DNA from: Desulfovibrio mangrovi
Lineage (GTDB): Bacteria > Desulfobacterota > Desulfovibrionia > Desulfovibrionales > Desulfovibrionaceae
DNA: 64,000 bases
Assembly (NCBI RefSeq): GCF_026230175.1
Contig: NZ_CP104208.1
Coordinates: 496,001-560,000, forward strand
Direction of reading: 5' to 3'
Shown: positions 48,946 through 61,528 of the stretch, piece after piece
Position numbering within the stretch: the stretch's first letter is position 1
Layout of the letters: every line of letters starts with the position of its first letter
The notes under the pieces: generated by a model
What the model was told of the DNA's origin: nothing
Databases searched by the model: none
Seen by the model: the letters and a program-made list of their open reading frames with translations, nothing else
Made by a program: the position numbers and the translations under genes

Positions 48946-51525
48946 TCAGGCGTCCAGCACTTCGCGGACGATGCGCGAGAATTCGGCCAGTTCAAACGGT
49001 TTGAGCATGATCTTGCGTATGCCGTGCTGCCCTTCGCGTATGGAGCGCAGCGCTTCCGAGTAGCCGGTACAGAGAATGACGGGCAGGTCGGGGCGGATGG
49101 CATAGACCGACTCGGCGAGCTTGGAGCCGGTGAGTCCGGGCATGGTCTGGTCGGTGACGATCAGGTCGAAGGCATCGGGGGTCGCGGCCACCCGCTCCAG
49201 TGCGGCACGGCTGTCGGTAAGTCCCGTGACTTTGTAGCCGAGATCTTCCAGCAACTGGCTGTTGATGGCGACGAGATCCTCTTCGTCGTCCACAAGCAGG
49301 ATGCGGCCCTGTCCGTGTACGGCAGCTTCCTCTTCTCCGGCCACTTCCGCGTCTGCCTTTCCGGCAAGGGGGAGCAGCAGGGTGAAGGCTGTGCCTTTTC
49401 CTTCCTTGCTGCGTGCGGTGATTTCGCCCCCCATGCTGCCGATGATGCCGTGCACCATGGCGAGGCCCATGCCGGTGCCTTCGCCTTGCGGCTTGGTGGT
49501 GAAGAATGGATCAAAGATGCGGTTCAGCAGGTCGGCGGGAATGCCGCTGCCGGAGTCCGAGACTTCAAGCTGGATGTATCTTCCCGGTACGAGTTGGCTG
49601 GTGGGCGTGATGTCACGTTCCGTCAGCGTACGCGGACGGGTGCTCACACGCAGCACGCCGCCGGTTTCGCGCATGGCGTAGGCTGCGTTGGTGCCGAGGT
49701 TCATGATGATCTGATGGATCTGGCTGGGGTCCGCCATGAGAGTGCCCTCCGCCTGCAGGTCCGCCTCAATGGTGATGGTCGAGGGCAGGGACGTGCGCAG
49801 CAGGTTGAGTACCTCATGAATGAGCGGGGCCAGTTCCACGCGGCGGCGTTCCGGTTCGCGGCGGCGGGAGAAGACCAGAATCTGGTTCACCATCTCGCGT
49901 GCGCGTGCGGCTACCTTGCGGATGCGTTCAAGATTGCTTGCGGCGCGGCTGTCCGGAGAGACTGAAGGCAGCGCGAGCTCCGCATAGCCGGATATGGCCG
50001 CGATGATGTTGTTGAAGTCATGGGCAATGCCACCTGCGAGTGTGCCCAGTTCCTCCATCTTCTGGCTCTGGCGCATTCGGGTTTCCATGCGCAGCTTTTC
50101 GGTAATGTCTCTTACTACTTCCACAATGTTAATGACCTTGCCTTCGTCATCAAGCACGGGGGTAATGGAAAGGTCGCCTTCAAGCAGACTGCCGTCTTTT
50201 CGCTTGTACGTTGTCTGGCCGCGCCATACTTCACCTTTGCCTATGTTGTCCCATATGCTCCGGTAGAAGGAATCGTCGTGCCTGTCGCTGCGGACCATGG
50301 CGATGTGCCTGCCTTTGAGCTCGGCTTCGGAGTAGCCGGTCATGGCCTGAAATGACGGGTTGGTGTATTCCACGTATCCCTGCGTATCCAGAATGAAGAT
50401 GCCGTCCTCGGTCTGCTCCATGGCAGCAAGCATGCGCATGCGGTCCTTGAGCTCCTTCTTGAGCTCTTCGGTGCGTTGCTGCACGCGGCGTTGCAGGGTG
50501 CGGTTCCATATGATGATGGACACAAAGGTGAAGATCACGAAGAGCACGCTGCCTGCCACATAGAACCAGAAGCGCTTGTTCTGCAGGAAGAAGGACATGT
50601 AGTTCTGGTCCAGACGCACCCAGCGGCGATAGATGGTGCTCTGTTCGGCAGGGGTGATGCTGTCCAGCCCCTTTTGCATGATGCGGGCGAGAATGGGCCA
50701 GTCGGAGCGCACGGCAATGCGGTTGAAGATGGCAAATTCCGTATGTCCGGCAACGCGAAGGTTGGTAATGCCCTTGTCTTCGATGAAGTAGCTGGCCTGC
50801 GGCAGCGAGATGATGGTGGCGTCTATTTCGTCAAAGGAGACATGCAGCAGGGCGGCAAGGTAGTTGTAGACCGGCTGGATGTGGATTGTCGGATAATATT
50901 TATGGATGTAGTCGATGACCGCGTATTCATTGGGCAGGGCAAGTTCCATGCGTTTTTCGCGCATGGTTTCCAGCGTGAGGAAATCCTTCTGGCTCTTGTT
51001 GACCAGAATGACGGTGGGCAGTTCCAGATAGGGTTTGGTGAACTGCATATAGTCGATGCGCGCCGGATTGCCAGCAAAGGCCGCGATCATGTCTATCTCG
51101 CGATTCTTTGCCATATCGAGGAGTTGCTTCATGTTGTCCGGCTCCACGATTTTGAACTTCACGTGCAGCCGTTCTTCCAGCAGGTGCATGTAGTCCGCAA
51201 CCATGCCACGGTATTCACCGTACTCATCCAGATATTCCAGCGGCCGGGAGGCAGGGGTGGCGGCAACCACGAAGGTTTTGTCATGCTCCGTGAGCCAGAC
51301 CCGCTCTTCAAAGGTCAGCGGGTCCTTCCAGCCCTGATGCAATGGCAGCAGGTTCAGGGCGAAGGCTGAAATGAAGATGATGACGAGCACTGCGAAGCCG
51401 AATCCCCAGAATGGGAGATACTGTTGAGAGAGCAGGCTGGCGAAACGGCCCTTGGGGGCGCGTGCCTGCTTCCCGTTGCGGGACTTGTTTTTCCGGCTAT
51501 CGCTTGTGCGGGTGGTGTTGGACAT
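48946..51525 (-). CDS. Hybrid sensor histidine kinase with SBP sensor
   Basis: 859 residues from the ATG at 51525 (GTGGAGGAAG upstream); a longer frame would cover the sigma-54-like promoter. Transmembrane helix at about 33-60, a periplasmic SBP_bac_3-type sensor domain (about 75-310: FVVAATPASRPLEYLDEYG … RIDYMQFTKPYLELPTVILVN), a second transmembrane helix near 318-340, a PAS domain (IFILDTQGYVEYTNPSFQAMTGYS, about 380-480), HisKA with AGGIAHDFNNIIAA (His about 500), ATPase motifs, and a C-terminal receiver with DLIVTDQTMPG (Asp about 790). Senses a small periplasmic ligand, probably an amino acid. Phosphorylates the regulator at 51823. Confidence 0.9.
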   Translation of the reverse strand: MSNTTRTSDSRKNKSRNGKQARAPKGRFASLLSQQYLPFWGFGFAVLVIIFISAFALNLLPLHQGWKDPLTFEERVWLTEHDKTFVVAATPASRPLEYLDEYGEYRGMVADYMHLLEERLHVKFKIVEPDNMKQLLDMAKNREIDMIAAFAGNPARIDYMQFTKPYLELPTVILVNKSQKDFLTLETMREKRMELALPNEYAVIDYIHKYYPTIHIQPVYNYLAALLHVSFDEIDATIISLPQASYFIEDKGITNLRVAGHTEFAIFNRIAVRSDWPILARIMQKGLDSITPAEQSTIYRRWVRLDQNYMSFFLQNKRFWFYVAGSVLFVIFTFVSIIIWNRTLQRRVQQRTEELKKELKDRMRMLAAMEQTEDGIFILDTQGYVEYTNPSFQAMTGYSEAELKGRHIAMVRSDRHDDSFYRSIWDNIGKGEVWRGQTTYKRKDGSLLEGDLSITPVLDDEGKVINIVEVVRDITEKLRMETRMRQSQKMEELGTLAGGIAHDFNNIIAAISGYAELALPSVSPDSRAASNLERIRKVAARAREMVNQILVFSRRREPERRRVELAPLIHEVLNLLRTSLPSTITIEADLQAEGTLMADPSQIHQIIMNLGTNAAYAMRETGGVLRVSTRPRTLTERDITPTSQLVPGRYIQLEVSDSGSGIPADLLNRIFDPFFTTKPQGEGTGMGLAMVHGIIGSMGGEITARSKEGKGTAFTLLLPLAGKADAEVAGEEEAAVHGQGRILLVDDEEDLVAINSQLLEDLGYKVTGLTDSRAALERVAATPDAFDLIVTDQTMPGLTGSKLAESVYAIRPDLPVILCTGYSEALRSIREGQHGIRKIMLKPFELAEFSRIVREVLDA

Positions 51526-51556
51526 TCTTCCTCCACATTTTTCAATAATACCCAGA

Positions 51557-51573
51557 TGCATGAAGCTTGCCAA
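51557..51573 (-). promoter_or_regulatory. Sigma-54 promoter for the sensor kinase
   Basis: On the minus strand TTGGCAAGCTTCATGCA: GG and GC are ten bases apart as in the sigma-54 consensus TTGGCACG-N4-TTGCA. Transcription would start about 20 bases before the kinase ATG. Confidence 0.7.
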
Positions 51574-51645
51574 GAAATGAATTTGTTTGCTTAATCAATC
51601 ATTGTTGTTCATGGAGATTGTCATGCGGAAGCGTGCGCAGGTTTT

Positions 51646-51666
51646 GTGTCCCGAAAAAGTGAACAT
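51646..51666. promoter_or_regulatory. Operator copy 1 (TGTCCCG-N5-GTGAACA)
   Basis: GTGTCCCGAAAAAGTGAACAT: two half sites in inverted orientation around an A5 spacer, about 75 bases upstream of the kinase sigma-54 promoter, a normal position for an enhancer-binding activator. The same sequence recurs three times upstream of dctP. A further half-site GTGTCCCG lies at 51675. Confidence 0.7.
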
Positions 51667-51716
51667 GCCCTTTAGTGTCCCGTCATTCCTTGGTTTGAGG
51701 GGCGCGTGACCGGTTG

Positions 51717-51732
51717 TGGTGCGGGATGTGCG
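51717..51732 (+). promoter_or_regulatory. Possible sigma-54 promoter for the regulator
   Basis: TGGTGCGGGATGTGCG has GG and GC ten bases apart and 8 of 11 consensus bases, about 90 bases upstream of the regulator ATG. Weak candidate. Confidence 0.35.
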
Positions 51733-51822
51733 GGTTGATTGTCTCGCCTGTATGGTGCATTGAGCTTTCCACAAGGACAGCAACAGCGTACACTGTGCCG
51801 AACAGGCAGGTATGGAGACGAC

Positions 51823-53355
51823 ATGGCCCGCATTCTGATTATTGATGACGATCCGGATATCAGCACGATCATTGCCCAGTTGGCAGAAGACGCAGGGCAT
51901 GCGCCCTTTACTGCGGGAACACTGGGTGAGGGGTTGAGCCGCCTGCGGTCCACGGCCATAGATCTGGTGTTTCTTGATGTGCGCCTGCCGGACGGCAGGG
52001 GCATTGACGCGCTGGCGGATATCCGCAAGTCGGACGGGCAGCCTGATGTCATTATCATTACCGGGCTTGGGGATCCGGACGGCGCGGAACTGGCCATTCA
52101 GAACGGCGCGTGGGATTACATCGAGAAAGGCAGCACGCTCAAGCAGATTGCCTTTTCCATGGACAGGGCGCTCAAGTATCGTGAACGCCATCGCCAGAGT
52201 GATTCCGGTTCACTGAAGCGGGATAAGCTTGTAGGCGACAGTCCCGCGCTGCATGCCGTGCTCGAGAATCTTGTTGTGGCGTCGGCCGGAGAAGCCAGTG
52301 TGCTTATTACCGGCGAAACGGGCACCGGCAAGGAAGTGGTGGCCCGTACCGTACACGAGAACAGCAACAGGGCCTCCGGTCCCTTTGTGGTGCTTGACTG
52401 CGCCTCCATTCCCGCCAATCTGGTGGAAGGCGAGCTGTTCGGTCATGTGAAGGGCTCGTTCACCGGTGCCACTGCCTCGCGTCAGGGCGTGGTTGGGCAG
52501 GCGGACGGCGGTACGCTGTTCCTTGACGAAGTGGGCGAACTGCCGCTGGCCATGCAGGGGGCCTTCCTGCGCGTGCTGCAGGAAAAGCGTTACCGCCCTG
52601 TAGGCTCGACACGCGAACTTGTCAGTGATTTCAGGTTGGTGGCCGCTACAAACAGGGATCTTGAGGCCATGTGTCGCGCGGGTACCTTCCGTACTGATCT
52701 TTTTTATCGCATAAAATCCTGCGCCATTCTCATGCCCCCGTTGCGGCAGCGGCTGGAGGACGTTCCGGCGCTGGCACGGCATCATCTGGATGCCATCTGC
52801 GCCCGATACGGCTGGCCGTCCAAGAAGCTTTCCGAAGAGTTGCTTTCACTGCTTATGCATTACGAATGGCCGGGCAACGTGCGTGAACTGGTGCAGACTC
52901 TGGAGCGAACCGCCGTGTTTGCTGCGGAGGAAGAAACCATCTATCCCGAGCACTTGCCCGTGGATATCCGCGCCCGCGCGGCCGGTCGCATGGTGCAGCG
53001 CACCTGCGCCGTGGAAGAGGGCGGAGCTGTGTCGGCCGCTGAAGGCGTTGCTGCCCCTGAAACAACGGGGGTTGCGGTAAGGGCAGACGATGCCGCTGCC
53101 CATGCAATCGGAGAACTGCCTGCAACGGCTGCGGTTCCCCAGTCTGATATCGTTTCCCGTTACCTTGATTCCGGCGGTCCCTTCCCCTCGTTCAAGGACT
53201 ATCGTACCGCCTGCATTGATCATATTGAAAAAGCCTACCTTGAGCGTCTGCTTGATGAGGCCAACGGTTCCATCAAGGAAGCCTGCAAGCTTTCCGGCCT
53301 TTCCCGCACCCGTCTGTACGTGCTGATGAAGTCGCATGGGGTGGGGAGAGAGTAG
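51823..53355 (+). CDS. Sigma-54-dependent response regulator
   Basis: 510 residues from the ATG at 51823. Receiver domain: acidic pocket Asp8/Asp9, phosphorylation Asp52 in DLVFLDVRLPDG. AAA+ domain: Walker A GETGTGKE at about 164, GSFTGA at 211-216 (the GAFTGA sigma-54 contact loop with one conservative change), Walker B GGTLFLDEVGELP. C-terminal Fis-type helix-turn-helix (GSIKEACKLSGLSRTRLYVLMK, about 480-508). The 425-465 linker is Ala-rich and long. It is divergent from the hybrid kinase; the regulator probably binds the TGTCCCG operators and activates dctP and the kinase gene. Confidence 0.92.
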   Translation: MARILIIDDDPDISTIIAQLAEDAGHAPFTAGTLGEGLSRLRSTAIDLVFLDVRLPDGRGIDALADIRKSDGQPDVIIITGLGDPDGAELAIQNGAWDYIEKGSTLKQIAFSMDRALKYRERHRQSDSGSLKRDKLVGDSPALHAVLENLVVASAGEASVLITGETGTGKEVVARTVHENSNRASGPFVVLDCASIPANLVEGELFGHVKGSFTGATASRQGVVGQADGGTLFLDEVGELPLAMQGAFLRVLQEKRYRPVGSTRELVSDFRLVAATNRDLEAMCRAGTFRTDLFYRIKSCAILMPPLRQRLEDVPALARHHLDAICARYGWPSKKLSEELLSLLMHYEWPGNVRELVQTLERTAVFAAEEETIYPEHLPVDIRARAAGRMVQRTCAVEEGGAVSAAEGVAAPETTGVAVRADDAAAHAIGELPATAAVPQSDIVSRYLDSGGPFPSFKDYRTACIDHIEKAYLERLLDEANGSIKEACKLSGLSRTRLYVLMKSHGVGRE

Positions 53356-53382
53356 GGCGTTATACCGAGATTGTTTTTCATG

Positions 53383-53406
53383 CCCCGCCATCCGGCGGGG
53401 TTTTTT
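53383..53406 (+). terminator. Terminator of the response regulator
   Basis: CCCCGCC / GGCGGGG stem, ATCC loop, T6 tail, 27 bases after the stop. Confidence 0.88.
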
Positions 53407-53422
53407 GTTCCGTCCTGCGGGA

Positions 53423-53443
53423 CTGTCCCGTAATTGTGAACAT
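53423..53443. promoter_or_regulatory. Operator copy 2
   Basis: CTGTCCCGTAATTGTGAACAT, same half sites and spacer as at 51646; first of three in the dctP upstream region. About 140 bases upstream of the candidate -24 element. Confidence 0.7.
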
Positions 53444-53456
53444 CGCATAGATTGCA

Positions 53457-53477
53457 GTGTCCCGTTTTTGTGAACAT
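53457..53477. promoter_or_regulatory. Operator copy 3
   Basis: GTGTCCCGTTTTTGTGAACAT. Starts 34 bases after copy 2, about three helical turns, so bound regulators would lie on the same face. Confidence 0.72.
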
Positions 53478-53493
53478 TTGGTACGCCGCACAG

Positions 53494-53510
53494 GTTCACA
53501 AAAGCGGGAC
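53494..53510. promoter_or_regulatory. Operator copy 4, inverted
   Basis: GTTCACAAAAGCGGGAC, the reverse complement of the same pattern. About 37 bases past copy 3. Confidence 0.68.
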
Positions 53511-53561
53511 TCTTACGTCTGTTTTGCTCTTAACATGTCGTATATTCGTGGGAAATCGAGT

Positions 53562-53578
53562 TTGGCACCAATCGTGGA
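53562..53578 (+). promoter_or_regulatory. Possible sigma-54 promoter of dctP
   Basis: TTGGCACCAATCGTGGA has a perfect -24 element (TTGGCAC); the -12 GC is GG, so it is only a candidate. It lies about 50 bases past the operators and 110 before the ATG. Confidence 0.4.
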
Positions 53579-53633
53579 TTGGTGCGGCGTACAGGCTGAA
53601 CTGCCAGCCTGAAAGGGAATATGTGTAGGGAGT

Positions 53634-53656
53634 AGAGTCCGCATTCAGGACTCTCT
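53634..53656 (+). repeat. Hairpin in the dctP leader
   Basis: AGAGTCC / GGACTCT arms with a 7-base loop, about 32 bases upstream of the ATG; may stabilise the 5' end of the transcript or affect ribosome binding. Confidence 0.5.
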
Positions 53657-53685
53657 AAACTAAAAGACATTTTTAGGAGTTCATC

Positions 53686-54702
53686 ATGAAGCGTATTGTT
53701 GCCGTACTGCTTTGCATGGCAGCCGTTTTCGGTCTGACCGCGTGCAACGACAAGCCTGCCGAAAAGAAGGCTGAGAAGGTTACCCTGAAGTTCGCCACTC
53801 AGCACCCCATTGAGCACATGGCTCACAAGGCCGCTGAGCGCATCAAGGCTCGTGTGGAAAAGGAAACCGAAGGCCGTGTGGAGATCCAGATCTTCCCCGC
53901 CAACCAGCTGGGTGACGCTTCCCAGATTTACGAAGAAGTCATCCGCGGTTCCATCGACATCGCGCACATCACTGTGCCGGACCAGTTTGACTCCCGTCTC
54001 GGCGTAGGCTTCCTGCCCTTCATCGCCCGCGACTACGACCAGATTCGCAAGGTTTTTGCTACCGAAGCCTTTATTCCCCAGGAAATGGCTAAGATGCATG
54101 ACAAGCTCGGCGTAAAGTTCTTCAGCTACTTCGGCGAAGGCTTCATCGGTGTGGGCACTGTTAAGCCTCTCGAAGCCATCAACGTTGCAGGCACCGAAAA
54201 GGGTCACATGATCCGCGTTCCCGGCCTGGACGTGTTCAAGTTCGGCGCAGAAGAGCTGGGCTTCCGCACCACCTCTCTGCCTTACGCCGACACCTATTCC
54301 GCTCTGCAGACCGGCGTTGTTGACGGCTGGCTCGGTGGCCCGCCCAACCTGAACTACCTGGGCTTCCGCGACGTCATCAAGCACTTCTACCAGTACAACG
54401 TAAACTTCGAATCTACCCAGTACGTCATGAACAAGAAGACCTTCGAAGGTATTGCTGACGCTGACCGCGCAGTAGTCGAGAAGGCATTCGTGGAAGAAGG
54501 CCAGCAGTCCTTCCTCATGGCTGAAAGCGAAGACCAGATGTACCGCAAGAAGATGCAGGAAATGGGTATCGAGGTTGTTACCTTCTCCACTCAGGAGCTG
54601 GAAGCAATGGCTAACTACGTACGCGAAAAGGCTTGGAAGCGTCTGGAAGCCAACCTTACCCCCGAACTGCTCAACGGCCTGAAGGCTTCTTACAACAACT
54701 AA
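53686..54702 (+). CDS. dctP: TRAP transporter substrate-binding lipoprotein
   Basis: 338 residues (AGGAG before the ATG). Lipobox LTAC puts the lipidated Cys at residue 20, so the receptor is membrane-anchored and faces the periplasm. DctP fold: VTLKFATQHPIEHMAHKAAERIKARVEKETEGRVEIQIFPANQLG near residue 32, and IRVPGLDVFKFGAEELGF near residue 180, whose Arg usually clamps a carboxylate. Ligand is thus a carboxylate-containing compound. First gene of the operon with a strong leader and hairpin after it. Preceded by three regulator operators. Confidence 0.92.
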   Translation: MKRIVAVLLCMAAVFGLTACNDKPAEKKAEKVTLKFATQHPIEHMAHKAAERIKARVEKETEGRVEIQIFPANQLGDASQIYEEVIRGSIDIAHITVPDQFDSRLGVGFLPFIARDYDQIRKVFATEAFIPQEMAKMHDKLGVKFFSYFGEGFIGVGTVKPLEAINVAGTEKGHMIRVPGLDVFKFGAEELGFRTTSLPYADTYSALQTGVVDGWLGGPPNLNYLGFRDVIKHFYQYNVNFESTQYVMNKKTFEGIADADRAVVEKAFVEEGQQSFLMAESEDQMYRKKMQEMGIEVVTFSTQELEAMANYVREKAWKRLEANLTPELLNGLKASYNN

Positions 54703-54756
54703 ACCTCCTCCAGTTTCCCGACCAGTATCTGTAACAGGATACGTCACTCCCAGTAC

Positions 54757-54800
54757 GTGCGGCGGGTGTCCGGAATACCCCCGGACAACCGCCGCACCTT
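54757..54800 (+). terminator. Intra-operon attenuator after dctP
   Basis: 17-base arms GTGCGGCGGGTGTCCGG / CCGGACAACCGCCGCAC with one mismatch and a 7-base loop, then CTTTT. Likely gives excess binding protein over the permease. Confidence 0.75.
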
Positions 54801-54838
54801 TTCGAAACGGTTCTTATCCCAACCAAAGGGGAAAAAAA

Positions 54839-55360
54839 GTGAACGCCATCAACTCCAATCCCGTGCAATTTTTCTGGAAGGGGCTCAACAAGTTCCAGAA
54901 GATTATTATGGCCACCACCAGCATCTGCATTGTGGTCATGATCTGTATTGCCGTGGTCGCACGATATATTTTCGGTTCCGACTTCTACGGCGCAGAAGAG
55001 CTCATCCAGATGCTTGCCTTCTGGCTCTACTTCATGGGCGCGGCCCAGGGCAGCCGCGAGCGCAGCCAGATTTCCGCCGACATTCTCACCTGCTACATCA
55101 CTGACGACAAGCGCTGCCGCATGGCGCATCTGCTCAAGGATTTCATTTCCACTGCCATCTGTCTGCTGGTGACGGTATGGGCGCTGCAGTTCGTTATGTG
55201 GGGTATGCAGATGGGACCCAAGTCTCCTGTGTTCCGTCTGCCCATGCTCATTCCGCACATCGCGGTAGGGCTCGGTTTTGTTCTGATGTCCATGTATCAG
55301 GTTGTGTACCTTGTGCAGGACGTTGCTGCCCATGTGCGTCTGGCGCGCGTGGAACGTTAG
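54839..55360 (+). CDS. dctQ: TRAP transporter small permease
   Basis: 173 residues from a GTG with AAAGGGG upstream. Four transmembrane helices: KIIMATTSICIVVMICIAVVARY near residue 18, LIQMLAFWLYFMGAAQGSRERSQI, FISTAICLLVTVWALQFVM, and PMLIPHIAVGLGFVLMSMYQVVYL. Small integral component of a TRAP importer, which couples uptake to an ion gradient. Confidence 0.9.
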   Translation: MNAINSNPVQFFWKGLNKFQKIIMATTSICIVVMICIAVVARYIFGSDFYGAEELIQMLAFWLYFMGAAQGSRERSQISADILTCYITDDKRCRMAHLLKDFISTAICLLVTVWALQFVMWGMQMGPKSPVFRLPMLIPHIAVGLGFVLMSMYQVVYLVQDVAAHVRLARVER

Positions 55361-55373
55361 GAGGGAAGTAGAA

Positions 55374-56672
55374 ATGACAGTTGCAATAGCCATCGGTATC
55401 CTTATGTTCACGCTGTTCATCGGCGTGCCTATTCCCTTCGCCTTCTTCGGCTCCGGCGCCTACCTGATTTTTGCCGGCGGATATGACCCCGGATTCCTGC
55501 TGCCTTACGGTTTCGCCAAGATGAACTCCATCGTGCTGCTTACCATTCCGCTCTTCATCATGGCAGGCGGCGTAATGGACAAGGGCGGCATCGGCGACAA
55601 ACTCGTGGAAGTTGTCGATACCATTGCCGGCCGCATCCGCGGCGGTCTGGGCGTGGTAACCGTTGTTACCTGCGCCATCTTCGGTGCCGTAACCGGCTCC
55701 TCTTCCGCCACTGTTTCCTGTATCGGCTCCATCATGATGCCCAAGCTGAAGCAGGCCGGTTACCCCATGGGCCATTCCGCTGCACTGCTCGCAAGCTCCG
55801 GCGTTCTGGGTATCCTTATTCCCCCGAGCATGCTGATGATTCTGTATGCGTGGATGGGTAACCAATCCGTTCTCGCCTGCTTCCTCGCTGCCTTTGTTCC
55901 CGGTCTCATCCTGACCGTGCTGCTCAGCCTCGTGAACCTGTTCCTGCTGCGCAATAACAAGAATATCGCTGTGTCGCCTGCCATGGACATGGCCACCACC
56001 GCCAAGACTTTTGCTACCAAGAGCGCCAAGGCTTCTCCGGCCCTGATGATGCCCGTGATCATTCTCGGCGGCATCTACGGCGGCATCATGACTCCCACGG
56101 AAGCTGCAGCCGTTGCGGTTCTCTATGCCATCCCCGTGGCCATGTTCGTGTACCGCGGCCTCAAGGCCAAGAACCTCATGTATACCCTGATTGAATCCGC
56201 CACCACCACCGGCGTTATCATGGCCATGATGTTTGCGGTTATGATCCTTTCCCGTCTGTACATCATGGAAAACCTGCCCGATCAGATCATGGGCGTGCTG
56301 ACTTCCATTTCTGACAACAAGTTCGTGCTGCTGATGATGATCAACGTGTTCATGCTTATCATGGGTATGCTCATGGACGACGTTTCCGGTGTGCTGCTTG
56401 GTACCCCCATTCTGGTTCCCCTGATCATGAAGCTTGGTGTTGACCCCATCCAGTTTGCCGCTATCATGGGTGTTAACCTCGGCATGGGTAACGTTACGCC
56501 GCCCACGGCTCCGCTGCTGTATCTCTCGGGCCGTATATCCGGCGCACCCGTGACCGAAATGCTGAAGCCCACGTTGTACCTCATTCTGTTCGCATGGCTG
56601 CCTACGCTGCTGCTGACCACCTACGTGCCTGAAGTGTCTCTGACCCTCGTGCATTACCTGATGGGCAACTAG
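55374..56672 (+). CDS. dctM: TRAP transporter large permease
   Basis: 432 residues from the ATG at 55374 (TAGGAGGGA upstream). Eleven to twelve transmembrane segments. TTP-type motifs: VPIPFAFFGSGAY, TIPLFIMAGGVMDKGG, AIFGAVTGSSSATVSCIGSIMMP and GGIYGGIMTPTEAAAVAVLYA. It is the transport channel of the DctPQM importer. The serine dehydratase gene starts 19 bases downstream and is therefore in the operon. Confidence 0.92.
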   Translation: MTVAIAIGILMFTLFIGVPIPFAFFGSGAYLIFAGGYDPGFLLPYGFAKMNSIVLLTIPLFIMAGGVMDKGGIGDKLVEVVDTIAGRIRGGLGVVTVVTCAIFGAVTGSSSATVSCIGSIMMPKLKQAGYPMGHSAALLASSGVLGILIPPSMLMILYAWMGNQSVLACFLAAFVPGLILTVLLSLVNLFLLRNNKNIAVSPAMDMATTAKTFATKSAKASPALMMPVIILGGIYGGIMTPTEAAAVAVLYAIPVAMFVYRGLKAKNLMYTLIESATTTGVIMAMMFAVMILSRLYIMENLPDQIMGVLTSISDNKFVLLMMINVFMLIMGMLMDDVSGVLLGTPILVPLIMKLGVDPIQFAAIMGVNLGMGNVTPPTAPLLYLSGRISGAPVTEMLKPTLYLILFAWLPTLLLTTYVPEVSLTLVHYLMGN

Positions 56673-56691
56673 GCAAAAGGAAAATACTGAA

Positions 56692-57909
56692 ATGCGTAGC
56701 TTACGGGAATTGTACCGCATTGGCGTCGGGCCTTCTTCCAGCCATACCATGGGCCCCAAGATCGCAGCAGAGCGTTTTCTGGAGCGCAACCCCTCGGCTG
56801 TCTCCTTCAAGGTGTATCTGTATGAGAGCCTTGGTGCCACCGGCAAGGGTCACCTTACTGACTGGGCAGTGCAGCAGGTTCTGGGACCGGACCGGACGGA
56901 AATCGTCTGGTGTCCCGAACTCAAGCAGCCCCTGCATCCCAACGGTATGCTCTTCGAGGCGCTTGATGCCGAATGCAAGGTGATCAATTCGTGGACCGTG
57001 TACAGTGTTGGAGGTGGTGCCATCCGTGAGGAAGGCGAAGCTGCCGATGCAGGCCAGCATGTTTACGATCTGCCGGATATTGCCACCATAATGGCGCACT
57101 GCGAAGACAAGGGCATTACCTACTGGGAATATGTGGAACGCTGCGAAGGGCCCGCCATATGGGACTTCCTTGGCGAAGTGTGGATGACCATGCGTTCCGC
57201 AATCGAACGCGGGCTTGATACGCAGGGCGTTCTGCCCGGGTCCATAGGTCTGCGCCGCCATGCGTGGAGCTACTACCGCAAGACCAAGCTTGCCGGCCCC
57301 GACATGCAGCAGTCCGGTCTGCTCACGGCCTATGCCATGGCGGTTTCCGAAGAAAACGCCGCGGGCGGCACTATTGTCACCGCACCCACCTGCGGGGCAT
57401 GTGGCATCGTGCCTGCCGTGCTGCACTACCTGCAGCAGACCGGTTCCCTTTCCGACAAGGATGTGCTGCGCGCTCTGGCTACGGCAGGTCTGTTCGGGAA
57501 CGTGATCAAGCATAACGGCTCCATCTCCGGCGCTGAAGTGGGTTGCCAGGGTGAAGTGGGCTCTGCCTGCGCCATGGCTGCCGCTGCCGCGACCCAGCTT
57601 ATGGGCGGTTCGCTGCGTCAGGTGGAATATGCTGCGGAAATGGGGCTTGAGCACCACCTTGGGCTCACCTGCGACCCGGTGGATGGTCTTGTGCAGATTC
57701 CCTGTATCGAACGCAATGCCTGCGCCGCCAGCCGTGCCCTTTCCTGCGGCCAGATGGCTATTCTCTCCGATGGCTCGCACCGCATTCCCTTTGATGAAGT
57801 GGTGCACGTCATGACCCAGACCGGGCATGACCTGCCCAGCCTGTACCGCGAAACCTCCACCGGAGGTTTGGCTCAGGCCTACTTTGCTCGAATGAAAAAC
57901 AAGGCATAA
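56692..57909 (+). CDS. L-serine dehydratase, FeS type (first copy)
   Basis: 405 residues in a single chain, with SdaAB-like beta domain at the start (VGPSSSHTMGPKIAAERFL) and SdaAA-like catalytic domain at the end (TAPTCGACGIVPAVLHYL near residue 231; GCQGEVGSACAMAAAAATQLMGGS; LTCDPVDGLVQIPCIERN). The cysteines in the last two regions bind the [4Fe-4S] cluster that removes water from L-serine to give pyruvate and ammonia. It ends in the common YRETSTGGLA form. A close alternative is another amino acid. It belongs to the TRAP operon, so its substrate may be what TRAP imports. Confidence 0.85.
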   Translation: MRSLRELYRIGVGPSSSHTMGPKIAAERFLERNPSAVSFKVYLYESLGATGKGHLTDWAVQQVLGPDRTEIVWCPELKQPLHPNGMLFEALDAECKVINSWTVYSVGGGAIREEGEAADAGQHVYDLPDIATIMAHCEDKGITYWEYVERCEGPAIWDFLGEVWMTMRSAIERGLDTQGVLPGSIGLRRHAWSYYRKTKLAGPDMQQSGLLTAYAMAVSEENAAGGTIVTAPTCGACGIVPAVLHYLQQTGSLSDKDVLRALATAGLFGNVIKHNGSISGAEVGCQGEVGSACAMAAAAATQLMGGSLRQVEYAAEMGLEHHLGLTCDPVDGLVQIPCIERNACAASRALSCGQMAILSDGSHRIPFDEVVHVMTQTGHDLPSLYRETSTGGLAQAYFARMKNKA

Positions 57910-57918
57910 TACGGAAAA

Positions 57919-57957
57919 GCGCCCCTCCTCCGCATGCGGATGGAGGGGCTTTTTTTA
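57919..57957 (+). terminator. Terminator of TRAP/serine dehydratase operon
   Basis: GCCCCTCCTCCGC / GCGGATGGAGGGGC stem with T7 tail; it lies before the second dehydratase and may be partial. Confidence 0.75.
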
Positions 57958-57970
57958 CAGGAGCTCATGG

Positions 57971-59548
57971 ATGGAAAATGTGATTTCCGAACCGGCCAGC
58001 ATATTCAATGACGTAATCGGTCCTGTCATGACGGGGCCTTCAAGTTCGCACACCGCCGGTCCCGCCCGCATAGGCAAAGCAATCCACGGGCTGGTAGGCG
58101 GGATAAGCAAGGCGGTTATCCATTTCAAGAAGGATGGTTCGTACCCGGGCACATACCGTGGGCAGGGTACGGACAAAGGATTCATCGGCGGTCTGCTTGG
58201 ATTCGGTCCCGAACATGAGCTGCTTGGCGACTCGCTGCAGGAGGCAGGGAGGCGGGGGCTGGAGTTCGCCTTCGAGATTGAGGAGAACAGCCATCCTAAT
58301 CCCAATACTGCCCGCATTGTAGTTGAGGATGCAGCCGGAAATGAGCGTGAGTTTCTTACGGAATCCACGGGCGGCGGCATGTTCCGGATCGTTGCCATGG
58401 ACGGCTTTCCCGTATCTGTCACCGGAGAATTTTGGGAACTGTTTGTCCAGCATCCGCTATCTGTCGCGCTTGATGAGCTGAATGCGCAGGCGCTGGGCTG
58501 TGGTTGCCGTATTGTCCGGCAAGAGAACTCCTCGGGTTGCCTGTTGCAGGTGACAGGGCAGGCCCCCTTTGCTTCCGCCCTGCTGGACGCGGTTAATGCG
58601 TTGCGGGACGAGACTGAATGCCGCGTCTCCTTTCTTGACCCGCTGTTGCCGGTAGCCGGGAAATTTCGGTATGATCTCCCGTTCTTCACGGCGGCGGAGG
58701 CCCTGAAGACGTGTGGAGATACCGCTGCCACGGCAGCCGGATTGGCTCTTGACTATGAGCGGGCACGGAGCGGATGTGGTGACGATGATATTTTGTCCCG
58801 CATGGTGGATATTGTTCGCGTGATGCGGCGTGCCTCCGTTGCAGGAATGGAAGGGGAACTGCCTGTTTCCGGCTTCCTGAAGCCCAAGGCGGCGGCAATG
58901 GCACGGGCGGTGTCTGAAGTCAGGCTGGCAGATCTGGGCGTCATGAACCGTGGTATGGTTATCGCCACAGCCATCATGGAATACAACAGCTCCGGTGGGA
59001 TCGTGGTTGCGGCACCCACAGCCGGTTCCTGCGGTGTGCTCCCCGCAGCGGTTCTTTCGCTGGCAGAGAGCATGGGGCTCTCAGAAGCTGAACAGGCCGA
59101 GGCCATGCTGGCCGCAGGGGTGGTGGGCGTATTTATTGCGCATCAGGCTACGTTCGCGGCAGAGGTCTGCGCCTGTCAGGCGGAGGTAGGAGCGGCGAGC
59201 GCCATGGCTGCGGCGGCAGTCGTGCAGATTTTGGGCGGGAATGCCTCTCAGGCGTTTTCCGCTGCCGGGCTTGCTTTGCAGAATGTTCTGGGACTCATCT
59301 GCGATCCGGTTGCAGGGCTTGTCGAGATTCCCTGCATCAACCGCAACACCATGGGAGCGGCCAACGCTGTTGCCTCCGCCAACATGGTAATGGCCGGGTT
59401 TGACCCTGTCATTCCACTGGATGAGGTTGTCGCCACCATGCTTCGGGTGGGGAATATGCTGCCTGCTGAGTTGCGGTGCACCAACAGGGGCGGGCTGTGC
59501 ACGACCCCTACTGCTTGTAGGATTCAGGACTCGCTGTCCGCAAGATGA
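57971..59548 (+). CDS. L-serine dehydratase, FeS type (second copy)
   Basis: 525 residues, clearly different from the first copy. SdaAB-like beta domain (VIGPVMTGPSSSHTAGPARIGKA at residue 15 and DKGFIGGLLGFGPEHELL), then SdaAA-like domain (VVAAPTAGSCGVLPAAVLSLAES near residue 343; CACQAEVGAASAMAAAAVVQILGG; LICDPVAGLVEIPCINRN). C-terminal LRCTNRGGLCTTPTAC has further cysteines that could be FeS ligands or a redox pair. ATG at 57971 with AGGAGC eight bases before. Substrate should be L-serine or a related amino acid. Confidence 0.85.
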   Translation: MENVISEPASIFNDVIGPVMTGPSSSHTAGPARIGKAIHGLVGGISKAVIHFKKDGSYPGTYRGQGTDKGFIGGLLGFGPEHELLGDSLQEAGRRGLEFAFEIEENSHPNPNTARIVVEDAAGNEREFLTESTGGGMFRIVAMDGFPVSVTGEFWELFVQHPLSVALDELNAQALGCGCRIVRQENSSGCLLQVTGQAPFASALLDAVNALRDETECRVSFLDPLLPVAGKFRYDLPFFTAAEALKTCGDTAATAAGLALDYERARSGCGDDDILSRMVDIVRVMRRASVAGMEGELPVSGFLKPKAAAMARAVSEVRLADLGVMNRGMVIATAIMEYNSSGGIVVAAPTAGSCGVLPAAVLSLAESMGLSEAEQAEAMLAAGVVGVFIAHQATFAAEVCACQAEVGAASAMAAAAVVQILGGNASQAFSAAGLALQNVLGLICDPVAGLVEIPCINRNTMGAANAVASANMVMAGFDPVIPLDEVVATMLRVGNMLPAELRCTNRGGLCTTPTACRIQDSLSAR

Positions 59549-59947
59549 TGTTCGAATCCGTTTAATACGACGGATGAGGGAATGCGCATACTTGAAACAG
59601 CCGGATACCAATCCGGCTGTTTGCGTTTGCAGGAGGAGGCAATTGCGCCCTTGGTGGGCATGGGCAAACTCTCTTCCACTGATCACCGATTGTAATTGTT
59701 GCAATGTGACAAATTTGTAATTGCAAAATTGAGAGGTTAAATGGGGGCGAAGTGCATGCTCTGGAGTTGAATGTCGCAGGATAACAGACTATTTTATGCA
59801 ACAGTCTTGTGATATACAAAATTGTCAAAATTATTGTCGTACAATTGACAATATTGTAATCATATGGCTTGGTGAACGGAGTCCTGAATCGTACGCCTGA
59901 GAGTTCCGATTGCTAATCTGCTGATATAAATCAATTAAATTATATCG
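59549..59947. other. AT-rich regulatory region
   Basis: About 400 bases without a gene, strongly AT rich in its right half. Contains two similar TTGTAATTG stretches (59690-59723) and a nested inverted repeat at 59821-59852: ATTGTC…GACAAT outside and ATTGTCGTACAAT inside. Likely promoter and operator of the degenerate NifA-like gene; no strong sigma-54 promoter seen. Confidence 0.5.
59821..59852. repeat. Nested inverted repeat, possible operator
   Basis: Outer arms ATTGTC (59821) and GACAAT (59847); inner ATTGT-CGT-ACAAT. About 96 bases upstream of the next gene start. Confidence 0.45.
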
Positions 59948-61528
59948 ATGCGTTTCGGCACTCCCTTTGCTTGTAGCGAGGGCATGCATGAAATCTCCCC
60001 CCTCAAACTAAAGGTGTTGTCAGAACTTGGCGGCATAGTCGGCAGGGCTCTCAGGCTTGAGCGCGCCTTGTACGAAGTGCTTTCTGTTCTGGGGAGCCAC
60101 CTTTCCATGAAGCATGGAACCATTTCATTGCTGAATCGGGAACGTACGGCAGTGGTCAGCTGTGTGTCGCATAACCATTCCATGCGTGATCAGAGCAAAG
60201 GGATGTGTCGTCTGCCTGATTCGGAGATCGTGAAAACGGCTCTGAAGGGGCAGCCGTTCGTGGTTATGGAGGGTAATGCTGCGCCGGTGACACTTGATGG
60301 GGCTGTAGCCAGAAGACTTGTGCGCCAGAAGGTGGCCATGCTCGGTGTTCCCGTCATGGAGCATGGCCGGGAGGCTGGTCTCGTGGCTGTGGACCGACTG
60401 TTTGAGTCTCCGGTCTCCATTGATGCGGATATGGAGTTTCTTTCCATGATAGCCGCGTTTGTCGGGCAGCTCGTCTGTCTCAATAACGCGGTTGCGGAGA
60501 GGATGGATGAGTTGAAGCGGGAGAACGTGGCCTTGCGGTATCGCGTATCCGGCGAAACCCGAAAGGGATACGTGGTGGCCCGCAGTGCGTCCATGTCCGA
60601 GGTGGAGTGCCAGATGGAACAGGTCGCTGCTTCGGACGAGCCAGTGCTGATCGTCGGTGAGGCCGGAGTCGGTAAGGCTATGCTGGCCGCCCTTATTCAT
60701 GATATTTCCGAGCGTTCCCGCCATCCGTTCGTCCGTGTCGATTGTCAGGCTGTGTGGCAGTCTCAGGGGAATGCGGCGTGGGGCAAAAGTCCTTTGGCTG
60801 GTGGTGATGCCTTCGCCGTCCACTTTGCTGAGCGGGTTGAGGCGTCGCATGGTGGAACATTGTGCGTTGAACATATGGAATTTCTTCCTCCTGCAGTGCA
60901 GGCCCTGTTGCTCAGGGTGTTGCAGGGGCAGGAGCTTGAGCGCGCGGGCTGCAATCTGGTGCGCCGTGTGGATGTGCGTGTCATTGCGTTGAGCGATTCG
61001 GATATTGTGCAGGATGTCAGAATGGGCCGCGTCAGTCCTGAGCTCTACGGGATGCTTGCCGGCAGCCAGATACACGTTCCCCCGTTGCGCGAGCGTAAGG
61101 AGGATTTGTCGGCACTGCTGAATCACCTGATTGCGAAGGTGGATCGCGAGTACGGGCGGCACTTGAGCTTTGGTGCGGATGCGTTGGAAGTGCTGCAGCG
61201 ATATGATTGGCCCGGCAACGTCAGCGAGGTTGAGATGGTCGTTGAGCGTCTGGCTTCCATGACTGACGGCGAGCGTATCGGTGCGGCGAGCCTGATGTCG
61301 CTGCTTGGCGGCGAAGGTGCAGGCACCGGAAGAAAGGGTGGGGCGACTGGAGCCGCTTCGCTGAAAGATATGGAGCGCAAGGAAGTGCTGAGCGCGCTGC
61401 GCCGGACGGGCTGGGTTCAGTACAGGGCGGCGGAAGAGCTTGGACTCACCCCGCGCCAGATGGGATATCGCATCAGAAAGTTCGGGTTGGAGAATATGGT
61501 GGCTTCCGAGCGGGCGCGTGTTCGTTGA
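59948..61528 (+). CDS. Degenerate NifA-like sigma-54 regulator
   Basis: 526 residues from the ATG at 59948; an ATG at 59984 is possible (the ribosome-binding site is unclear). GAF domain about 20-165, a truncated-looking AAA+ domain about 200-430, and a NifA-type helix-turn-helix (about 475-515, YRAAEELGLTPRQMGYRI). Walker A is GEAGVGKA at 237 instead of GESGTGKE; the GAFTGA loop is missing (AAWGKSPLAGGDAFAVHF); Walker B is GGTLCVEH (302-309) with the Asp and Glu changed. It therefore probably cannot activate sigma-54 and may be a repressor or a scaffold. Reading frame is intact, so not obviously a pseudogene. Confidence 0.82.
   Translation: MRFGTPFACSEGMHEISPLKLKVLSELGGIVGRALRLERALYEVLSVLGSHLSMKHGTISLLNRERTAVVSCVSHNHSMRDQSKGMCRLPDSEIVKTALKGQPFVVMEGNAAPVTLDGAVARRLVRQKVAMLGVPVMEHGREAGLVAVDRLFESPVSIDADMEFLSMIAAFVGQLVCLNNAVAERMDELKRENVALRYRVSGETRKGYVVARSASMSEVECQMEQVAASDEPVLIVGEAGVGKAMLAALIHDISERSRHPFVRVDCQAVWQSQGNAAWGKSPLAGGDAFAVHFAERVEASHGGTLCVEHMEFLPPAVQALLLRVLQGQELERAGCNLVRRVDVRVIALSDSDIVQDVRMGRVSPELYGMLAGSQIHVPPLRERKEDLSALLNHLIAKVDREYGRHLSFGADALEVLQRYDWPGNVSEVEMVVERLASMTDGERIGAASLMSLLGGEGAGTGRKGGATGAASLKDMERKEVLSALRRTGWVQYRAAEELGLTPRQMGYRIRKFGLENMVASERARVR

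Follow-up and report, generated by a model that had tools for sequence, protein, structure and literature searches.

What does a NifA protein do once the machinery by which it acts on sigma-54 polymerase has been lost? This question is raised by a gene of Desulfovibrio mangrovi (genome G000, one contig of 3.95 Mb), which lies in the window analysed here, a stretch of 64,000 nucleotides covering contig positions 496001-560000. The gene encodes a paralog of NifA in a genome that also carries a canonical NifA. Enhancer-binding proteins (EBPs) without GAFTGA and interacting NifA-family paralogs are already in print (PMC10274813, PMC9542535), and among the literature matches listed, the titles and abstract openings describe no ATPase-dead NifA paralog.

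Gene and domain organisation

The open frame claimed by the first-pass annotation is present at window positions 59948-61528 (526 aa). Its GAF, sigma-54 AAA+, lid and HTH_8 domains all exceed the Pfam cut-offs, which bears out the earlier description of GAF, AAA+ and NifA-type HTH parts that are intact as a frame, and the GAF-AAA+-HTH_8 order fits NifA. The start first placed at 59948 has been revised (Table 1). Translation most likely begins at ATG 59984, because positions 59956-59970 form a sigma-54-type -24/-12 element (GG-N10-GC) that all four genes of the locus before the HAD phosphatase and murJ share, and because in the ortholog of the related genome G003 a TAA stands, by eye, in frame shortly before the corresponding ATG.

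Table 1. Features of the NifA paralog and its upstream region, in window coordinates.
Feature	Position	Strand	Remarks
Putative nitrogen-regulon operator, copy 1, ACAAATTTGT	59709..59718	.	ACA-W4-TGT
Putative nitrogen-regulon operator, copy 2, ACAAAATTGT	59816..59825	.	ACA-W4-TGT
Putative nitrogen-regulon operator, copy 3, ACAATATTGT	59848..59857	.	ACA-W4-TGT
Sigma-54-type -24/-12 promoter, CGGCACTCCCTTTGC	59956..59970	+	GG-N10-GC; ends 13 nt before ATG 59984
CDS, probably ATPase-dead NifA paralog	59984..61528	+	514 aa; a start at 59948 would add 12 residues overlapping the promoter
GAF domain	60056..60469	+	Residues 37-174 of the 526-aa frame; 30/57 near-invariant NifA positions lost
AAA+ sigma-54 activator domain	60575..61072	+	Residues 210-375; 46/81 near-invariant positions lost; fold predicted intact
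Degenerate Walker A, GEAGVGKA	60656..60679	+	T to A; lysine kept
Place of the GAFTGA L1 loop	60797..60814	+	From the multiple alignment; unrelated residues, same length
Degenerate Walker B, CVEH	60863..60874	+	FLDE in canonical NifA
Arginine-finger segment, VSPELYGM	61031..61054	+	Canonical FRxDLYYR; both arginines gone
HTH_8 (Fis/NifA-type) DNA-binding domain	61361..61483	+	12/12 near-invariant positions kept

A search of G000 with the paralog gave 37 matches, itself counted, and the next-best was the canonical NifA at 1558714-1560264 (38% identical), which adjoins nitrogenase-component-1-like (nifE/N-type) and nifB genes. Among solved structures, the best full-length sequence match is Azotobacter vinelandii NifA (9qq6_C, 205 bits). 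The likeness to NifA resides in the domain order, in the NifA-type HTH and in a position nested within the NifA clade, whereas on the NifA equivalog model TIGR01817 the paralog reaches 301.9 bits, below the curated cut-off of 528.85; four canonical NifA proteins of the genus score 521-528 bits, also just under it.

The AAA+ region is predicted to have the AAA+ fold of EBPs. In the AlphaFold model (mean pLDDT 85, pTM 0.59), whose input alignment consists of ordinary EBPs and so biases it toward an ordinary fold, and whose L1 stretch is of low confidence, a TM score of 0.87 was obtained with Foldseek on the 1ny6_A domain, and a Z of 27.8 over 232 residues at 1.4 Å with VIA-align on 1ny6_C.

Elsewhere in the window, positions 48946-59548 hold in a row a hybrid sensor kinase (assigned by eye), a sigma-54 response regulator and a TRAP transporter together with two serine-dehydratase-like genes. 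This row may form a unit for uptake and deamination under two-component control. The second serine-dehydratase-like gene adjoins the NifA paralog in genome G006 too.

Loss of the catalytic machinery

Conservation was scored against 53 canonical NifA proteins, which give 167 alignment columns with a conservation of 95% or more. At these columns the paralog departs in 46 of 81 AAA+, 30 of 57 GAF and 5 of 17 lid positions and in none of the 12 HTH positions; for the G006 ortholog the departures number 44, 29, 5 and 0, respectively, and 39 AAA+ columns are lost in both proteins. The AAA+ and HTH losses of the paralog differ with a Fisher p of 0.0002, for positions that are not strictly independent.

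The altered Walker A (GEAGVGKA) and the Walker B with E-H for D-E, both reported by the first-pass annotation, were recovered in the alignment, and the G006 ortholog reads GEDGVGRA, with the lysine lost as well, and EN for DE, so that an acid stays at the first place of the pair in both proteins. The contact loop for sigma-54 had been described as missing. GAFTGA is indeed absent, but the L1 stretch has been replaced at equal length and not deleted. That list of losses was also incomplete. In the residues assigned as sensor I, TN has become SD; both arginine fingers are gone; D stands for the switch asparagine; and GNVSE replaces GNVRE, with loss of the sensor II arginine. Common to the paralog and the G006 protein is the loss of GAFTGA, the Walker A threonine, the Walker B DE pair, sensor I, the arginine fingers and the switch asparagine, whereas the sensor II arginine is lost in the paralog and the Walker A lysine in the G006 copy.

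Motifs were examined in 30 of the 37 G000 matches, the paralog included. In all 29 other EBPs the L1 loop and the Walker motifs can still be recognised; one has TE in place of DE in Walker B, and in a few the loop or the arginine-finger segment is variant. A NifA-family search at E 1e-100 matched in 107 of 247 genomes; among the 55 NifA-family proteins whose motifs were examined, only the paralog and its G006 ortholog are degenerate, and the loop variants found were GAFTSA (L161) and GAFSGA (L163). A scan of genome contigs at 80 loci, from which 34 alignment rows were chosen and 33 used, one being dropped for a stop codon, gave no close ortholog of the paralog.

The paralog thus has neither GAFTGA nor a tolerated L1 variant, and neither canonical Walker A and B motifs, nor sensor I, nor arginine fingers. 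It is probably ATPase-dead, and the sequence gives good support to the earlier proposal that the protein has ceased to be a sigma-54 activator and has probably retained DNA binding. The further suggestion of a GAF-gated DNA binder is doubtful, the GAF domain having lost over half of its near-invariant positions.

Orthologs, descent and probable exchange of nif genes

In six of the ten genomes of the genus, G000 included, nifH was found above the family cut-off, and the genomes with NifA-like proteins at E 1e-90 are these same six. The degenerate form occurs in two of the ten, G000 and G006 (58-60% identity to each other), both of which also have a canonical NifA. At the same locus, before the HAD phosphatase and murJ, G003 and G004 carry an intact NifA, which is the only NifA found in either genome (the G003 assembly being 86% complete). 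The first-pass annotation had held that a canonical GAFTGA in homologs would imply local decay. This loop is indeed present in the same-locus homologs from G003 and G004, but the nearest ortholog, in G006, shares nearly all the losses.

In the tree, the same-locus genes of G000, G006, G003 and G004 are united with support 98/95, and the nif-cluster NifA proteins of G000, G006, G005 and G007 lie elsewhere, intermixed with two proteins of other genera (99/99). The branch leading to the degenerate pair measures 3.4 changes per column, and the program warned of long branches and odd composition; the joining of the four same-locus genes is, however, supported independently of the tree by their shared gene neighbours. 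By these comparisons, the paralog descends from NifA.

The history of the nif genes probably differs from that of glnN. GlnN of G000 is 94% identical to that of G006, 91% to G003, 90% to G004 and 72% to G005. NifH of G000 is 89-90% identical to each of G003, G004, G005 and G007 and does not separate them, nor does the first quarter of NifK, for which the same 108 residues give 85% with G003, 90% with G004 and 87% with G005. Because NifD, NifH and the NifK fragment lack the closeness to G003 and G004 that GlnN has, it is likely but not proven that the nif genes were exchanged in one of the two lineages. If this happened in the lineage of G000 and G006, it would explain the release of the old NifA. 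When G000:C1:1547207-1558400 (L214, L167) is compared with L229, L231 and L170, NifD, unlike GlnN, is nearer to G005 (85%) than to the closer relatives G003 and G004 (77-79%), which suggests such an exchange. As a separate observation, genes that resemble, by eye, the primase/helicase and integrase of a mobile element lie just upstream of the nif cluster (L214:8061-13071; G000:C1:1538060-1543070).

Selection by domain

The central result of the analysis is that the sensor and motor have been released and the DNA-binding end retained. Between G000 and G006, dN of the degenerate gene is 0.370 in GAF, 0.390 in AAA+, 0.215 in the lid and 0.119 in the HTH, and the corresponding values of the functional NifA are 0.025, 0.050, 0.060 and 0.149. 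Relative to the functional NifA, the AAA+ domain therefore evolves about 8 times and the GAF domain about 15 times faster, and the HTH is equally slow, a comparison of dN that is independent of dS. The omega values of the degenerate gene, rough because dS is near saturation, are 0.23 for GAF, 0.38 for AAA+ and 0.09 for the HTH (the lid is saturated and not computable), with 0.22 overall.

Over the HTH, the identity of the paralog is 79% with the sole NifA of G003, 69% with the sole NifA of G004 and 62% with the resident NifA; G003 and G004 share 79% with each other. In the GAF and AAA+ domains, the identity to the sole NifA proteins of G003 and G004 is 36-38% (37 and 38%, respectively, for G003), whereas G003 and G004 are 90 and 92% identical to each other in these two domains.

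Promoter and nitrogen-regulon operators

In 40 of 55 NifA-family genes the start lies in frame 11-13 nt past a GG-N10-GC element, the next-best 3-nt bin holding 14; all eight NifA-like genes of the genus are among the 40, together with, for example, L002, L031-L033, L058, L059 and L140. Sigma-54 promoters initiate transcription some 12 nt past the -12 GC, and with start codons 11-13 nt after this GC the transcripts of those 40 genes are probably leaderless, and that of the paralog, with its 5' end predicted near 59982, is expected to be near-leaderless.

Three putative operators of the form ACA-W4-TGT lie further upstream of the paralog (Table 1). The genus has eight NifA-like genes, which are preceded by 15 such sites in all, against 0.19 expected from shuffles, and at least one site is present upstream of 18 of the 55 NifA-family genes. 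In G000 there are 28 copies of the 12-base form DACAWWWWTGTH, at 23 places, against 10 for the reversed control. Paired or tripled copies were found at four of these places, before amt-glnB-glnD, a type III glutamine synthetase gene, nifA and the paralog (G000:C1:450905, 555708, 1560368, 2679653 and nearby; L208, L169, L167, L221), and the clusters at amt-glnB-glnD, nifA and type III glutamine synthetase precede sigma-54-type promoters. Among the single sites (22 of the 23 places were inspected, 3847957 being left out), four are inside predicted genes, one precedes a second amt gene (3426256), one (3779743) precedes a gene whose product is similar to branched-chain amino acid binding proteins, with a score under the model cut-off, and most others lie by further genes.

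Across the genus, the ACA-W4-TGT core and a sigma-54-type promoter precede glnN in 10 of 10 genomes and, in 9 of 10, an amt gene as well, G004 being without an exact core there; in six genomes this amt gene matches the query at only 37-39%. For four of those genomes, no nifH passes the cut-off and the NifA search at E 1e-90 gave no match. NifA or the paralog as the binder of its own upstream operators was therefore dropped, and binding of the paralog at 59690-59852, which the first-pass annotation had proposed to test, gives way to another regulator as the likelier occupant. Since the core precedes glnN and amt in genomes without a nifH or NifA match, the operators are probably bound by another nitrogen EBP. 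DVU1949 of Desulfovibrio vulgaris Hildenborough is described in PMC4641369 as a one-component EBP with a predicted nitrogen regulon, co-transcribed with ior genes in four of the genomes of that study; it keeps GAFTGA. G000 likewise has an ior-linked EBP (L228:3893-5410), and this is perhaps the binder; that the DVU1949 motif is the ACA-W4-TGT operator is a guess. The 10-kb stretch around the ior-linked EBP operon contains no exact ACA-W4-TGT core.

A match to the classical TGT-N10-ACA element at 59835-59850 was given no weight, because the window has 9 matches against a shuffle mean of 11.45. A near-palindrome, TTGTCGTACAATTGACAA, was also noted at 59834-59851, where it overlaps the third operator.

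nifH enhancers as the candidate target

Exact copies of TGTAG-N4-CTACA precede nifH twice each in G000, G005 and G007 and once each in G006 and G003; upstream of nifH in G004 no exact copy was found, only similar half-sites by eye. By eye, a TGGCA-type sigma-54 element follows some 80-115 bp after the end of the exact sites. The exact copies in G000 number four in total, two before nifH and two inside predicted genes, and the 64-kb window has none with up to one mismatch. The paralog should recognise the nifH enhancer, because G003, in which only the same-locus NifA was found, has the site and an HTH 79% identical to that of the paralog. The target could have moved, since the identity to the resident NifA is 62% over the HTH and 75% over the 16 residues of the recognition segment.

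Proposed function and alternatives

With a probability of about one half, we favour the reading that the paralog is a NifA-derived pseudo-enhancer-binding protein, made under nitrogen limitation, which would sit on NifA-type enhancers and dampen the action of NifA. In the G000 and G006 lineage a NifA of its own belongs to the nif cluster, and another NifA, at the HAD-phosphatase/murJ locus, lost its ATPase and sigma-54-contact machinery but kept its sigma-54 promoter, nitrogen-regulon operators and HTH. Under nitrogen limitation a general nitrogen EBP would turn on both the true nifA and the paralog, and the latter may bind the nifH-type enhancer TGTAG-N4-CTACA while being unable to remodel sigma-54 polymerase. 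From enhancer binding without remodelling it would follow that the paralog competes with NifA, perhaps in mixed oligomers, and that nif expression is damped or delayed; this negative sign we infer. Counting against the reading are the restriction of the degenerate form to two of ten genomes, intact same-locus relatives being known, the failure to find an exact site before nifH in G004, whose only NifA is the intact ortholog, and the absence of any nifH-type enhancer from the window. The fuller history, in which a NifA made redundant by an exchanged nif cluster became an ATPase-dead repressor on the nitrogen signal of nifA, and in doing so an incoherent feed-forward brake on nitrogen fixation, is put forward tentatively.

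A somewhat unlikely alternative is that the paralog regulates sigma-70 promoters independently of ATP, with targets other than nif. According to PMC10274813, EBPs without GAFTGA, namely NtrC of Caulobacter and Rhodobacter capsulatus and VpsR of Vibrio (there written VspR), act on sigma-70 promoters, and VpsR is said to work without ATP. The paralog resembles them in lacking the sigma-54 contact loop, and VpsR (7v2b_A, Z 25.4) is among the structural matches of the modelled AAA+ domain, below many ordinary EBPs. However, the NtrC examples carry L1 deletions in response regulators for which a need for ATP binding is reported or predicted in the same source, whereas the paralog is a GAF protein with an equal-length loop replacement and nucleotide motifs that are altered together, and its HTH remains NifA-like, pointing to nif enhancers. 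Less probable is an action mainly through protein contact, by which the paralog would enter NifA oligomers and poison or tune them. The predicted EBP fold and an AAA+ domain still under purifying selection would suit it, as would, by analogy, the VnfA paralogs of Azotobacter vinelandii, NifA-family proteins whose genes also have sigma-54 promoters and which hetero-oligomerise, VnfA1 and VnfA3 sharing promoters and interacting (PMC9542535). In the available part of that paper, ATPase loss is not described for VnfA1, VnfA2 or VnfA3, and in the present paralog the loss of both arginine fingers and of most near-invariant AAA+ positions, together with an HTH constraint that exceeds that of AAA+, argues against this mode of action.

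Slow decay of a gene whose frame is still unbroken is improbable. The intact same-locus orthologs, the fast GAF and AAA+ domains and the restriction to two genomes would all be expected of it, but the frame is open in both species at dS above 1 with an overall omega well below 1, the promoter element is retained, and the HTH is conserved as in functional NifA, so that neither the broken frame nor the lost constraint of a pseudogene is seen. The local decay considered by the first-pass annotation is, for the same fully kept HTH and a dN/dS below 1 wherever a domain could be computed, an unlikely account. It is harder still to credit that the protein activates sigma-54 polymerase through an unusual loop. 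The Desulfovibrio EBP DVUA0100, with GVATGV, is predicted to be active (PMC4641369), but the paralog has also lost its Walker B DE pair, its sensor I and both arginine fingers, and G006 is also without the Walker A lysine.

If the pseudo-enhancer-binding reading is true, this locus would show clearly how an activator can become a passive DNA binder, having lost almost all of the catalytic set with an HTH as constrained as that of its active paralog. The intact same-locus orthologs allow a direct comparison of before and after, and the case bears on how one genome handles two NifA proteins.
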